A stretch of DNA of 32,210 nt from a virus, in the IMG/VR virus record IMGVR_UViG_3300050821_022590, positions 1 through 32,210 of that record. One strand, written 5' to 3'. Of this stretch, positions 2,491-23,706 are shown in pieces. Position numbers and translations under genes: made by a program. The notes beneath the pieces are model-generated. The model searched no databases and was not told the DNA's origin. It saw only the letters and a list, made by a program, of their open reading frames with translations. Positions within the stretch are counted from its first letter, which is position 1. The number at the start of each line of letters is the position of its first letter.

Positions 2491-2519
2491 TTGACTTATT
2501 ATTATAGTTATGTTAGAGT
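2491..2519 (+). promoter_or_regulatory. Sigma70-like promoter upstream of the 2528 gene
   Basis: TTGACT (2491-2496), a 17-bp spacer and a weaker TAGAGT (2514-2519). It repeats the TTGACTTAT wording of the 1362 promoter. It lies just after the HAD gene stop and gives an expected start close to the ATG at 2528. Confidence 0.38.
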
Positions 2520-2527
2520 ATTTTAAG

Positions 2528-2881
2528 ATGATTAAAAAATTTTATAACAAAATAAAATATAGTTTAAATGTCCCTAAAGTTGGCAATACCTATTACGGCG
2601 ACCCACTTCTTTTTGTTATTGGTAAGCCAGTAGAATACGTTCTCTATGGTTTGACAGATAAAAACGGTAATAAGTTGGTTGAAATCGTACCCAGCTGGGA
2701 CTGTTATAGGATTACCATTAGAAGCATCCAGCCCTTATATTATATTTTAGATGCGGAAGTCTTTTGCGCAACAAAAGATAATTTTAAATGGATGTCTAGA
2801 ACTCAACCCGTAAGATTCAATAAAGAAAATTTCAAGCAAATGGTAATCGGCGGAACTCTAACAAAAGGGAATAAACAATGA
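2528..2881 (+). CDS. Hypothetical protein, 117 aa
   Basis: I do not recognise the family. The frame also has an ATG at 2510, but that codon lies inside the candidate promoter spacer, so the ATG at 2528 (MIKKFYNK...) is preferred. The protein is basic and aromatic-rich with alternating hydrophobic residues, and looks like a small soluble beta-rich domain. There is no signal peptide and no convincing membrane segment. It overlaps the start of the PagL-like gene by four bases (ATGA), so the two are coupled. Whether it assists that envelope protein is not shown by the sequence. Confidence 0.6.
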   Translation: MIKKFYNKIKYSLNVPKVGNTYYGDPLLFVIGKPVEYVLYGLTDKNGNKLVEIVPSWDCYRITIRSIQPLYYILDAEVFCATKDNFKWMSRTQPVRFNKENFKQMVIGGTLTKGNKQ

Positions 2882-3360
2882 AATATATAATCCTACTATT
2901 GGTTTTGGTCCCCTGTTTTGCATTTGCCGATGACGATCAGCTAATTTTAGATGGTGGAGTTGGGGTGTTTCATAGTGCTGATAAAGGTCTTTCAGAAACT
3001 AAGTTGCTTACACTTGGAGTGCAAGAAACGATTTGGGGACCCCTAAAAGATCGGGCTTTAGTTGGTGGATGGATTGATGATACTGGCGATGGAAAATCTG
3101 GGAGCGCTTTAATTGGTGGACAGCTAGGTTTTGAAGTAAATAACAATGGCTGGGTTGGAAGTGTTTTTTCAGGTCCTGCAATAATTAGCAATACTGATGT
3201 GCTTTTGGGCGGAAATTTTGAGTTCGTAGACGACCTTCATCTCGGCATTCAAGACCAGCATGGCTATTATATTGGTGTAATGTATCGCCATATAAGTTCC
3301 GCTGGGTTGGAATTTCCAAATATCGGGCGCGACTTCATTGCTCTGGAACTTCGGTGGTAA
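2878..3360 (+). CDS. PagL-like outer-membrane lipid A deacylase (putative)
   Basis: The 160-residue protein starts with a clear signal peptide (basic K2, hydrophobic core, cut after AFA at 15-17), giving a mature chain of about 143 residues, close to the ~150 of PagL. The rest is Gly-rich alternating beta strands and ends in a terminal aromatic Trp160, as outer-membrane barrels do. Near the C-terminus RHISSAGLEFPNIGRD places His138, Ser140, Asn148 and Asp152 with the same spacing as His126, Ser128, Asn136 and Glu140 of Pseudomonas PagL, which removes the 3-O acyl chain of lipid A. Here the Asn after the Ser is Ser141 and the acid is Asp. A role in altering host lipopolysaccharide late in infection is inferred. 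It could also be an inactive barrel. Confidence 0.6.
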   Translation: MKYIILLLVLVPCFAFADDDQLILDGGVGVFHSADKGLSETKLLTLGVQETIWGPLKDRALVGGWIDDTGDGKSGSALIGGQLGFEVNNNGWVGSVFSGPAIISNTDVLLGGNFEFVDDLHLGIQDQHGYYIGVMYRHISSAGLEFPNIGRDFIALELRW

Positions 3361-4258: not shown

Positions 4259-6514
4259 TTGGATAAAAAACTCAAAATCAGTCTTGATTTAGATGACCGG
4301 GCTTTCACAAGCGCCGTTAAGCGCATGCAAGAACAGCTTAACCAAATTAATTCTGGTCCAGCATTATTAAAACAGCAGCAACAAATCTCTCAGAAGATGC
4401 AACAATTAGGACTCGGACCTCTTCCTGGCGCAGGATCTGCTCAACAAACCCAACAAGCCAATCAAAAAGCTAAGCAGGATGCCGATAAGTTATTTGAAGA
4501 CACAAGACGTAAAATGGAGATTATTAAAAGACTCCAAGCCGACCTTAATAAAGAACAAGCATCAGGTCTAGCCACAGAAGAGCGCAAGCTTAGAATACGT
4601 GAGCGCCTGGTAGAGCTTGGACAACTAGAAAAAAGAACTACTGGTGGAATGGCAGCCTTAGTAGCTGATAGAGGCGCTATGCCTGCTGGTGGCGGTACTT
4701 TAGGCGGCGGTGGAGGCTCAGACCTACTTAGTATGACCAAGACCATTCTTGGCGCCATGGGCATCGGTATAGGTATGTCCGCTTTAGTCAATCTAGGTAA
4801 GCAAGTTTATACTTCTTATGTAAGCGCTCCTTCTCAAATGAATCTAGCTACGGGTTCGGCAGTTCAAAACGCTGTTGGTTATCAGAATCAAAGCATGCTA
4901 TCTGGTGATATCGCTTCCCAAGCTATTTTACAAAATCAGGTAGGTAAGGGTAGAGGATTAGCGGAAAGAAATTTTGATTCTCAGATTTCAAATAAAATAT
5001 CCAATATTTTTGCTACCGCCAAGGATATGGCATCTGCAGCAACTAATTACATACTAGATGTAAATTTAGACCCAAATAGAAACAGGAATGCTTTTCAGTC
5101 TAATAGAGCTAAAGAAATTGCTGATGAAACAGTCAAGCAAGCGCAGGCTTCTGTAGCACAAAATAATTCCTTGGTTTTAGCACAAGGCATGTTCGGTCAG
5201 ACTTTTAACCGCAATCTAGGCGCTGAACGCTCCCTAGGACTTGGAACCGATCAATTCCAAAAAATGCAAATGCAGATGAATAACTCTGGATTCCTAACAG
5301 ATCAGGGATTAGGAATGTTAAGCCAAATCCAGGGCGCCGGGGGCTCTGCAGCAGGTCCTAATGCTGGCAGACTTGCTAATCTAGGCTTAGGCGCCCAGCG
5401 TGGCATGAACATTACCAACGCCGGTAATGTCCTTGGTAAATTAACCGGTTTATATGGTGCTGGTGGTATTTCACAAACCGAAGAAGCTACTAAGAGAATT
5501 CTAGAAGAGTCTATTAAAAAGGGTTTTGACAAATCTGAAAATACCGAAATCATAAGAAAGTTTGTAGAGGCATCAGCCGATATCGTTTACAAAGGCGAAG
5601 CTACGAAAGGTGAAGACGTTCAGCGTCTAACTAAAGACTTTTCCCAACTCCTATCTGACAATCCTAGCATTAAACAATTCGAAGCCGCTTCGACCGCATA
5701 CCAGAGATATCAAGGGTTGACTTCCGAAACATCGGGACGAGGCGGAGCTTTGGGTTTTGCGGCTTTTGCGGGTAATAGTAGCTTTTCAAAACTCTCACCC
5801 TTACAAATTGGCAACCTGCAATCTCTTCCTGAAGGTCGTATTACATCTACCAACAGTGATATCGTAGCAGCTGCTGTTCAACAAGGCATTTCTCCAGAAG
5901 AGATGGCTAAGCAAGTTCTAGCCGCAAAACAACAACAAGCTCTTTCTACAGTAGGCATTTCCCAGAAACAAATGGGTGCGCTAAAAGGCTATTTGGGCGG
6001 TAGAGATATTAGCACTTTGATGGGCAATGCTAGCGAGCTTACAAAACTACAGAGTACCAACCCAGAAGCTTATCAAGCTTATCAAGCACTTCAAACCAGA
6101 GCCGATCTTTCTGGTACTTCTGGAAGTGATGCAGAAAAACAAGCAATGATGAAACAGCTTTTCTTAGGTCCGGCTGCTTTTGGCGGTGCTGGAGGAACAG
6201 AAACAGCTGCAGGTCGCATTGCCACTGGCACAGGCGGTAAAAAAGAAGAAGAATATATTGCAGCACAAGCCGGTCAAGAAAAGCAGATGGTATTAAACCT
6301 AAAAGCTTTACAAGACAATTTATATCCTACAGCAGATGGTATTAAGCAACTAACCCAAGCTATTATAGGTCTAGGAAATGCAGCTCACATTCTAACTGAT
6401 GACGAGAGAGCGCGCGGAGTCCTTCGAGGAACCCCAACTGGCGGTGTCAGTACAAAAGAATCTCTCTCTAGAACTTCTACCAATGGATCCAAACCTAGAA
6501 CCGGAAATCAGTAA
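4259..6514 (+). CDS. Putative tail tape-measure protein, 751 aa
   Basis: The start is TTG at 4259, supported by AAGG ten bases upstream and by an N-terminus (DKKLKISLDLDDRAFTSAVKRM) typical of tape-measure-like tail proteins. Residues 15-125 are Gln/Lys/Leu-rich and coiled-coil prone. A Gly-rich linker (about 143-155) is followed by a hydrophobic segment (LGAMGIGIGMSALVNLG), as tape-measure proteins often have. The remainder is Ala/Gln/Gly-rich helical sequence with a disordered Ser/Thr/Lys tail. It lies directly ahead of hub and spike genes, where tape measures are found. As a fully helical ruler it would span roughly 110 nm. No peptidase or lysozyme domain was seen. It could be another internal tail protein. 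Confidence 0.55.
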   Translation: MDKKLKISLDLDDRAFTSAVKRMQEQLNQINSGPALLKQQQQISQKMQQLGLGPLPGAGSAQQTQQANQKAKQDADKLFEDTRRKMEIIKRLQADLNKEQASGLATEERKLRIRERLVELGQLEKRTTGGMAALVADRGAMPAGGGTLGGGGGSDLLSMTKTILGAMGIGIGMSALVNLGKQVYTSYVSAPSQMNLATGSAVQNAVGYQNQSMLSGDIASQAILQNQVGKGRGLAERNFDSQISNKISNIFATAKDMASAATNYILDVNLDPNRNRNAFQSNRAKEIADETVKQAQASVAQNNSLVLAQGMFGQTFNRNLGAERSLGLGTDQFQKMQMQMNNSGFLTDQGLGMLSQIQGAGGSAAGPNAGRLANLGLGAQRGMNITNAGNVLGKLTGLYGAGGISQTEEATKRILEESIKKGFDKSENTEIIRKFVEASADIVYKGEATKGEDVQRLTKDFSQLLSDNPSIKQFEAASTAYQRYQGLTSETSGRGGALGFAAFAGNSSFSKLSPLQIGNLQSLPEGRITSTNSDIVAAAVQQGISPEEMAKQVLAAKQQQALSTVGISQKQMGALKGYLGGRDISTLMGNASELTKLQSTNPEAYQAYQALQTRADLSGTSGSDAEKQAMMKQLFLGPAAFGGAGGTETAAGRIATGTGGKKEEEYIAAQAGQEKQMVLNLKALQDNLYPTADGIKQLTQAIIGLGNAAHILTDDERARGVLRGTPTGGVSTKESLSRTSTNGSKPRTGNQ

Positions 6515-18909: not shown

Positions 18910-19941
18910 ATGAAGTATAATAAATGGACATTTGAAAAATTGCAATTGGAGGCTCTAAAATATGATACCCGTTCTGCTTTTAAAAAAGGCAATTATGGAG
19001 CATATCAAGCGGCTATAGCGCGAAATCTTTTAGATCAAATATGCTCTCACATGGCGAGTTCCGATTATTTTTGGAAAGACGAAGCTTTAGATAAAATTAT
19101 AAGATCTTATCATAGTAGAAGCGCCTTAGCAAAAGGGAATTTGGGAGCTTATAAAGTGGCTATGAAAAGAGGATTATTAGACGACTATCCACACATGCCA
19201 AAGCATATAGACCAATCTGGGGAAAACAGCCCCAGATTTAAGTGGACACACAAAATGCTTCAAAAAGAAGCCTTAAAATATAAAACTAAGAAAGAATTTC
19301 AAGTCGGAAATTACGCAGCTTATACCGCTGCTCAAAAAAGAGGTATTTTAGACGAAATATGCAAGCACATGATACCGGGTTTTAAAACTGGTGAAAATCA
19401 TTATAATTTTAAATGGACAGATAAAAAATTAAGAAAAGAAGCATTAAAATATACAACAAGAGCGGAATTTCAAAAAGGTAGCGGAGCTGCTTATAATGCC
19501 GCTTTGAAAAGGGGCATTTTAGATGAAATTTGTTCTCATATGAAAAAATCCAGTAATATTTCTATACCTGAAAGAGAGTTATTTAATATTATTAAAAATA
19601 TTTTTATATCAACACAAAAACTTTATGATCGTAAGGTTAAAATTGATAAAAAACCTTATATAAAAGGTTTTGAAATTGATATTTTTGTCCCAGAACTAAA
19701 ATTAGGTATAGAGTTCGATGGTAAACGCTACCATTCATTTGAATATATGAGAAAAGATAAACAAAAAAAGCTTTGGACTGATTGCGATATTGTTAACTAC
19801 CACGAGATCAAAGACACTTGGTTTTTAACTAAAGGAATCAAAATTCTACACATCAAAGAACAAGGTTGGCTTGAAGATAAACAAGCATGTATCGATAGAT
19901 GTCTAGAATTTTTAAGTCTTTCTAATAGAAAGGCTGCTTAA
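18910..19941 (+). CDS. Free-standing homing endonuclease, EDxHD/Vsr-like fold, 343 aa
   Basis: The protein has four repeats of about 42 residues (6-48, 55-95, 112-154, 169-211) of the form W-T-x-x-x-L-x-x-E-A-L-K-Y-x-T-R-x-E-F-x-K-G-x-x-x-A-Y, ending in (L)DEICxHM. These are the predicted DNA-binding units. A C-terminal nuclease domain (219-335) of the very-short-patch-repair type follows: Glu255-x-Asp257 in GFEIDIFVPELKLGIEFDG, Asp270, His275, then YHEIKDTW and GIKILHIKEQGW. This matches the phage EDxHD homing endonucleases. It sits between two baseplate genes with only one base before the next ATG, a typical free-standing homing gene placement. It has its own promoter-like sequence and an internal hairpin at 19214-19238. 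The AT-rich, Lys-rich composition differs from the neighbouring structural genes. Confidence 0.85.
   Translation: MKYNKWTFEKLQLEALKYDTRSAFKKGNYGAYQAAIARNLLDQICSHMASSDYFWKDEALDKIIRSYHSRSALAKGNLGAYKVAMKRGLLDDYPHMPKHIDQSGENSPRFKWTHKMLQKEALKYKTKKEFQVGNYAAYTAAQKRGILDEICKHMIPGFKTGENHYNFKWTDKKLRKEALKYTTRAEFQKGSGAAYNAALKRGILDEICSHMKKSSNISIPERELFNIIKNIFISTQKLYDRKVKIDKKPYIKGFEIDIFVPELKLGIEFDGKRYHSFEYMRKDKQKKLWTDCDIVNYHEIKDTWFLTKGIKILHIKEQGWLEDKQACIDRCLEFLSLSNRKAA
19214..19238 (+). repeat. Perfect 9-bp inverted repeat inside the EDxHD endonuclease gene
   Basis: AATCTGGGG (19214-19222) and CCCCAGATT (19230-19238) flank a 7-base loop AAAACAG. The stem has five G-C pairs. There is no T-run after it. It lies in the linker between repeats 2 and 3 of the protein, where coding constraint is low. 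Confidence 0.65.
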
Positions 19942-23268: not shown

Positions 23269-23706
23269 TCAATCCCTTACGAATACGCTACCACAAGTGA
23301 TTTGTTTTTGCAAGTCTTTACTAGCCTTATTTTTTACGCGTTTAACATAAGTATAATTTTTAGGATAAGTAGGGAATTTTTCACTTTCAATAAAACTGCC
23401 TGCATTATAAGCAGCAATTGCTTTACAATAATTATTTTCGTATCGTTGTAGTTGATATTTTAGATAAAGACCGGAATAATAAGCATTCACTTCAGGTCTC
23501 ATCAAATCCTTAGTCTTCCCTTTGAAACCAACTAGACGTGCCGTAGATTCTTTGAGTTGGCAAATTCCATGCGAAGGAGTTCCCTTATCGTTTGGATTGT
23601 AATTCATTTTAAAATCAGAACTCTCATAAGAACAAACTGCTAGAAGTAGTGCTCCATATATATGAGCCATTTTAGCAGCGGTTAGAATAGTAGATGTTAA
23701 ATCCAT
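23269..23706 (-). CDS. SLT-type lytic transglycosylase (putative endolysin), 145 aa
   Basis: The protein has the soluble-lytic-transglycosylase lysozyme fold motifs in order: CSYESSDF with catalytic Glu28, PSHGICQLKESTAR (44-57, the GxxQ motif), NAYYSGLYLKYQL and AIAAYNAG (97-103). It cleaves the glycan strands of peptidoglycan. There is no classical signal peptide, but the first 25 residues (ILTAAKMAHIYGALLLAV) are hydrophobic and belong to the catalytic fold's first helix. It carries no targeting domain and is not in the tail operon, so an endolysin role is more likely than a virion role. It has its own sigma70-like promoter and an AGGAGA ribosome site. Confidence 0.8.
   Translation of the reverse strand: MDLTSTILTAAKMAHIYGALLLAVCSYESSDFKMNYNPNDKGTPSHGICQLKESTARLVGFKGKTKDLMRPEVNAYYSGLYLKYQLQRYENNYCKAIAAYNAGSFIESEKFPTYPKNYTYVKRVKNKASKDLQKQITCGSVFVRD

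Follow-up and report, generated by a model that had tools for sequence, protein, structure and literature searches.

Genomic setting of the gene

The analyzed stretch of DNA, here called the window, comprises positions 1 to 32,210 (32,210 nucleotides) of the IMG/VR virus record IMGVR_UViG_3300050821_022590 and carries baseplate, wedge, and virion genes. At a distance of 0.9 kb from the tail module lies a gene for a protein of the PagL family, referred to below as pagL (Table 1). Its bounds are exactly those given in a preliminary description, made from the sequence alone, in which it was named a candidate PagL-like lipid A deacylase. The ATG of pagL shares the tetranucleotide ATGA with the TGA stop codon of the upstream open reading frame, for which no family match was found in Pfam or PHROGs. 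This overlap of stop and start, together with the AAGGGA motif at a spacing of 7 nt, gives pagL the appearance of a real, translationally coupled gene.

By inspection, the encoded protein contains both the signal peptide and the terminal aromatic residue noted in the preliminary description. The signal peptide has a probable cleavage site of the signal peptidase I type, AFA/DDD (MKYIILLLVLVPCFAFA/DDD), and shows no canonical lipobox, and the close relatives likewise end in W or F. A codon comparison of pagL with its two closest relatives gave pN values of 0.23 to 0.24 and a pS of approximately 0.8, which is saturated. The small number of nonsynonymous changes relative to saturated synonymous change indicates that the protein is under purifying selection.

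Table 1. Features in and around the pagL gene of the window
Feature	Position	Strand	Basis or remark
Upstream open reading frame, 123 aa, function unknown	2510..2881	+	Overlaps pagL start (translational coupling)
Shine-Dalgarno-like AAGGGA	2865..2870	+	Sequence; spacer to ATG, 7 nt
PagL-family gene, 160-aa outer-membrane beta-barrel, predicted lipid A 3-O-deacylase	2878..3360	+	PF09411, AlphaFold2, 2ERV match
Signal peptide, residues 1-17	2878..2928	+	Sequence; AlphaFold2 helix 2-10
His138, predicted catalytic His (PagL His126)	3289..3291	+	Alignments; invariant in 149 bacterial and all viral homologs
Ser140, predicted nucleophile (PagL Ser128)	3295..3297	+	Alignments; invariant in 149 bacterial and all viral homologs
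Ser141, PagL Asn129 position	3298..3300	+	S, D, N, or C in viral homologs
Asn148 (PagL Asn136)	3319..3321	+	Conserved across every homolog examined
Asp152, predicted catalytic acid (PagL Glu140)	3331..3333	+	Closes GRD signature
C-terminal Trp160	3355..3357	+	Terminal aromatic, typical of outer-membrane barrels
Small Lys-rich open reading frame, 61 aa	3362..3547	+	Similar-looking small open reading frames flank pagL in L259 and L289
751-aa open reading frame, start of tail module	4259..6514	+	Relative adjoins pagL in L259 (748 aa)

The gene is phage-borne: it lies near a tail module and recurs in a 162-kb phage contig. Most of the tail genes in the window have counterparts in that contig, with 34 to 58% identity in the aligned stretches, and the two pagL products are 63% identical over their full length, a value higher than that of every shared tail protein. 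In both genomes pagL adjoins the end of the tail module that carries the gene for the 751- or 748-aa protein, although its relative orientation is opposite. The arrangement at locus L289 looks like that of the 162-kb contig, and the 772-aa neighbor of pagL there resembles the 751-aa protein of the window by its first residues. Behind pagL in L259 come a dUTPase gene and, two genes on, a phosphoesterase gene, and the order in L266 is by appearance the same. A Phage_lysozyme gene lies two genes downstream of pagL in L268, which is the sole checked context with an endolysin close by; a lysis cassette as the general setting of pagL was therefore ruled out.

The nearest named phage is Myxococcus phage Mx1, which shares baseplate proteins with the window at 28 to 37% and in which no PagL match was found. 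A search for tRNA genes, sought for host inference, found none. Other genes in the window include one for a protein of the IMP dehydrogenase/GMP reductase family (positions 133 to 1098; PF00478, E = 1.9e-55), of which the 162-kb contig encodes a distant counterpart, and, two genes before pagL, one with a HAD domain of the Swiss Army Knife RNA repair type (2059 to 2484; PF18143, E = 2.4e-26). A gene resembling HNH or homing endonucleases lies between baseplate genes (18910 to 19941) and is probably mobile, with four scattered homologs in the 162-kb contig. Far from pagL, a gene on the minus strand (23269 to 23706) encodes an SLT transglycosylase (PF01464, E = 1.3e-12) that may serve as an endolysin or a virion lysin.

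Family membership and predicted fold

The assignment of the protein to the PagL family, as a candidate enzyme of a phage, is well supported. The profile search that had been proposed in the preliminary description gave a match to PF09411 (PagL) with E = 7.5e-7 and 29.8 bits, above the curated gathering cutoff of 23, and two close phage relatives likewise exceed this cutoff. PF09411 was the only Pfam family reported for the window protein at E values up to 10; the profile of LpxR (PF09982) was not matched, and no PHROG match was found. A hidden Markov model built from bacterial PagL sequences only scored the protein at 37.4 bits, versus 8.4 bits for the best of 10,000 shuffled versions of it. 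A phmmer search against all solved structures matched one chain, 2ERV (residues 96 to 154, E = 0.0078), the crystal structure of Pseudomonas aeruginosa PagL.

Structure prediction with AlphaFold2 from an alignment of 26 sequences, 7 of which were PagL sequences of Pseudomonas and its relatives that may pull the model toward PagL, gave an eight-stranded barrel with a pLDDT of 90.0, the five models agreeing at 88 to 90. This model matched 2ERV best by VIA (Z = 18.8, 1.5 Å over 131 residues; the runner-up structure had a Z of 15.6 at 2.7 Å) and by Foldseek (E = 2.5e-5). When only the three closest phage sequences were used, the model again had eight strands, at a pLDDT of 74 and with the other four models poor; 2ERV came first by Foldseek (E = 3.1e-5), and by VIA it ranked level with other small barrels (Z of 16.0 versus 15.9). 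The overlay on PagL that the preliminary description had set as a check thus yielded a predicted eight-stranded barrel for which 2ERV is the clear best match. Co-location of the catalytic residues would follow from the ungapped alignment of the motif and the 1.5-Å superposition.

The window protein resembles P. aeruginosa PagL in having a signal peptide, an eight-stranded outer-membrane barrel with a C-terminal last strand, and an HxS...N.G.[acid] motif of identical spacing. It differs in its overall sequence (approximately 22% identity), in having Asp rather than Glu as the acid and Ser rather than Asn129, in the Arg that precedes the acid (GRD), and in being encoded by a large phage beside its tail genes.

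Catalytic motif and predicted activity

In the phmmer match, the segment HISSAGLEFPNIGRD of the window protein and HYSNAGLKQPNDGIE of 2ERV form an ungapped alignment. The window segment contains His138, Ser140, Asn148, and Asp152 at the offsets of 0, +2, +10, and +14 that had been reported for them, and Gly143 occupies the position of PagL Gly131. The protein accordingly has the HxS motif with an Asn eight residues after the Ser (H138, S140, and N148) and a carboxylate (D152) as the third triad residue, 14 residues after the His; the Asn that usually stands beside the catalytic Ser in PagL, which is not a defining residue, is replaced by S141.

These positions were compared with 149 nonidentical PagL sequences drawn from a Pseudomonas-rich search and from 398 genomes sampled across one phylum. 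No sequence of this set varies at the His, the Ser, or the +10 Asn. The catalytic-acid position is occupied by E in 112 sequences, N in 17, D in 11, and T in 6. At the position after the catalytic Ser, 141 sequences have N, 6 have H, 1 has Q, and 1 has S. Two departures from PagL had been pointed out in the preliminary description. The Ser in place of Asn129 stands as a departure, being rare in bacteria and common in the viral branch, with Asp at this position in the two closest phage relatives. The Asp in place of Glu is no oddity: since it occurs in 11 of the bacterial sequences and in every viral homolog, it is an ordinary variant of the family. The 17 bacterial sequences with Asn at the acid position (loci L205-L217 and L187) raise the question of which residue completes their triad.

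PagL hydrolyzes the 3-O ester of outer-leaflet lipid A by attack of its Ser, which is assisted by the His and a third polar residue; all of these residues are present in the window protein. We consider it probable that the gene encodes a phage PagL-family enzyme that is exported, forms an eight-stranded barrel in the outer membrane, and uses its triad to hydrolyze the ester link of a lipid A acyl chain. The signal peptide would export the protein during infection, and the protein would then fold into the outer membrane of the host. There the triad His138-Ser140-Asp152, with Asn148 and Gly143, would cleave an ester-linked acyl chain, most likely at the 3-O position, as in PagL. Lipid A 3-O-deacylation is given here as a likely, predicted activity.

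Counting against PagL activity is the Asn129 position, with Ser in the window protein, Asp in its two closest relatives, and Asn in nearly all of the bacterial sequences. This difference, the great divergence of the barrel outside the catalytic residues, and the depth of the viral branch with its own GRD signature (see below) would also suit an outer-membrane esterase that has the PagL fold and acts on another substrate, such as a different acyl position, a phospholipid, or an unusual host lipid. Such a change of substrate appears improbable in view of the PF09411 match above the cutoff and of the same His, Ser, and Asn being kept in every bacterial PagL branch sampled.

Viral relatives

Searches recovered 22 further viral homologs, for a total of 23 with the window protein. 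The two close relatives in IMG/VR are encoded on the 162-kb contig described above and on a 23-kb contig (66 to 67% identity). Scans with patterns of the catalytic motif gave more loci, nearly all with a PagL-like open reading frame; most rows of the 19-row viral alignment were found in this way, and its invariant residues are partly built in. The claim of a conserved motif rests instead on a separate scan with a DNA pattern for another conserved stretch, D..LGG.F[QE]F..D, which recovered four known loci and four new ones (L279, L281, L289, and L291). All four new loci carry HxS...N.GRD, although the catalytic motif was not used to find them.

The retention of the catalytic residues in homologs at only 20 to 40% identity, including these four, and the purifying selection on pagL bear on whether the protein is an enzyme at all. 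BFVD matches show that outer-membrane barrels with no known function occur in many phages, and the protein could be an inactive barrel that masks or blocks the cell surface, for example, a superinfection exclusion protein with a borrowed PagL fold; against such conservation, we regard this as very improbable.

In a maximum likelihood tree, a branch with 97/95 support sets apart 19 of the 23 viral sequences, among them that of the window, and all 19 have the signature H-x-S-...-N-x-G-R-D. An Arg before Asp at the acid position occurs in 0 of the 149 bacterial PagL sequences. One very long-branched bacterial row sits among the 19, and the deep order of the tree is unsure because it is based on 140 columns and a midpoint root. 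The remaining four viral sequences (L270-L273) form a second group outside this branch. The PagL-like sequences of L270-L274 have the motif HLSNAG[LM]..PNIG.D and a short, odd N terminus, and the gene in L273 lies near a family A DNA polymerase gene. These comparisons support the view that the PagL-family genes of many uncultured phages form a virus branch of their own within the family.

No close relative of the window protein was found in bacterial genomes, and no close relative of pagL was found in plasmids. A tblastn search of named phages in INPHARED, in a version from which entries closest to the window may be absent, gave no matches for the window protein, three viral relatives, or two Pseudomonas-type queries. 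Although pagL occurs commonly in a large bacterial phylum (present in 113 of 398 genomes) and host-like copies are carried by Pseudomonas prophages, a host gene caught by chance, as a passenger or through assembly contamination and with no role for the phage, is extremely improbable given the lack of a close bacterial relative, the recurrence of the gene in the 162-kb phage contig at an identity above that of the shared tail proteins, and the well-supported grouping of the 19 viral sequences.

Host-like pagL genes in Pseudomonas prophages

The pagL genes of Pseudomonas prophages (phrog_15758, listed as of unknown function) are likewise phage-borne members of the family. They share 75 to 78% identity with P. 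aeruginosa PagL in the segment searched and are placed inside Pseudomonas PagL in the tree, apart from the separate viral branch to which the window gene belongs; this identity and nesting mark them as host-like cargo genes. They recur in IMG/VR prophage contigs (L099-L178; e.g., L137:4614-5192 and L105:4680-5192), often directly behind an antiterminator gene. Of 80 prophage pagL loci, 38 have an antiterminator Q homolog that begins approximately 1 kb ahead of the catalytic motif, 17 have a NinG homolog upstream, and 30 have a homolog of the terminase small subunit downstream. Such neighbors indicate a cargo site in the late region, as in other lambdoid prophages. In three loci (L105:5349-6305, L104, and L108) a gene for a colicin M-type bacteriocin stands directly behind pagL.

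LpxR, a lipid A deacylase, has been reported beside antiterminator Q in Escherichia coli prophages (PMC13192938) and provides a precedent; it is similar in being a phage-carried lipid A deacylase and different in belonging to a protein family (PF09982) other than PF09411. In a literature search, no paper describing a phage-encoded PagL was found, the apparent matches that were checked being author names or unrelated mentions.

Possible roles in infection

Expression of PagL raises outer-membrane vesiculation in Salmonella, where deacylated lipid A gathers in the vesicles (PMC4958258), which makes a late weakening or curving of the membrane plausible. The role that we favor, tentatively and with some doubt, is that the enzyme would lower the stability of the outer membrane and increase its curvature late in infection, which would help progeny to leave the cell without sticking to debris. 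A role in lysis finds little genomic support, since L268 was the only checked context with an endolysin nearby. Next in favor, and rather unlikely, is a change of the cell surface directed against competing phages. It may also be, though we lean slightly the other way, that large, probably lytic phages possess an old PagL branch of their own (the GRD type) that does not stem from recent host capture, and that trimming of lipid A is a regular function of their infection, which would make lipid A itself a phage target.

Phages are known to alter the sugars of host lipopolysaccharide; the enzymes known to trim its lipid anchor are mainly bacterial. A virus lineage of PagL extending over many uncultured phages would add remodeling of outer-membrane lipids to the phage toolbox and would offer a way, open to testing, by which release, exclusion, or vesicle formation could come about. 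It would also suggest a likely function for genes that are now called hypothetical, including those of phrog_15758.
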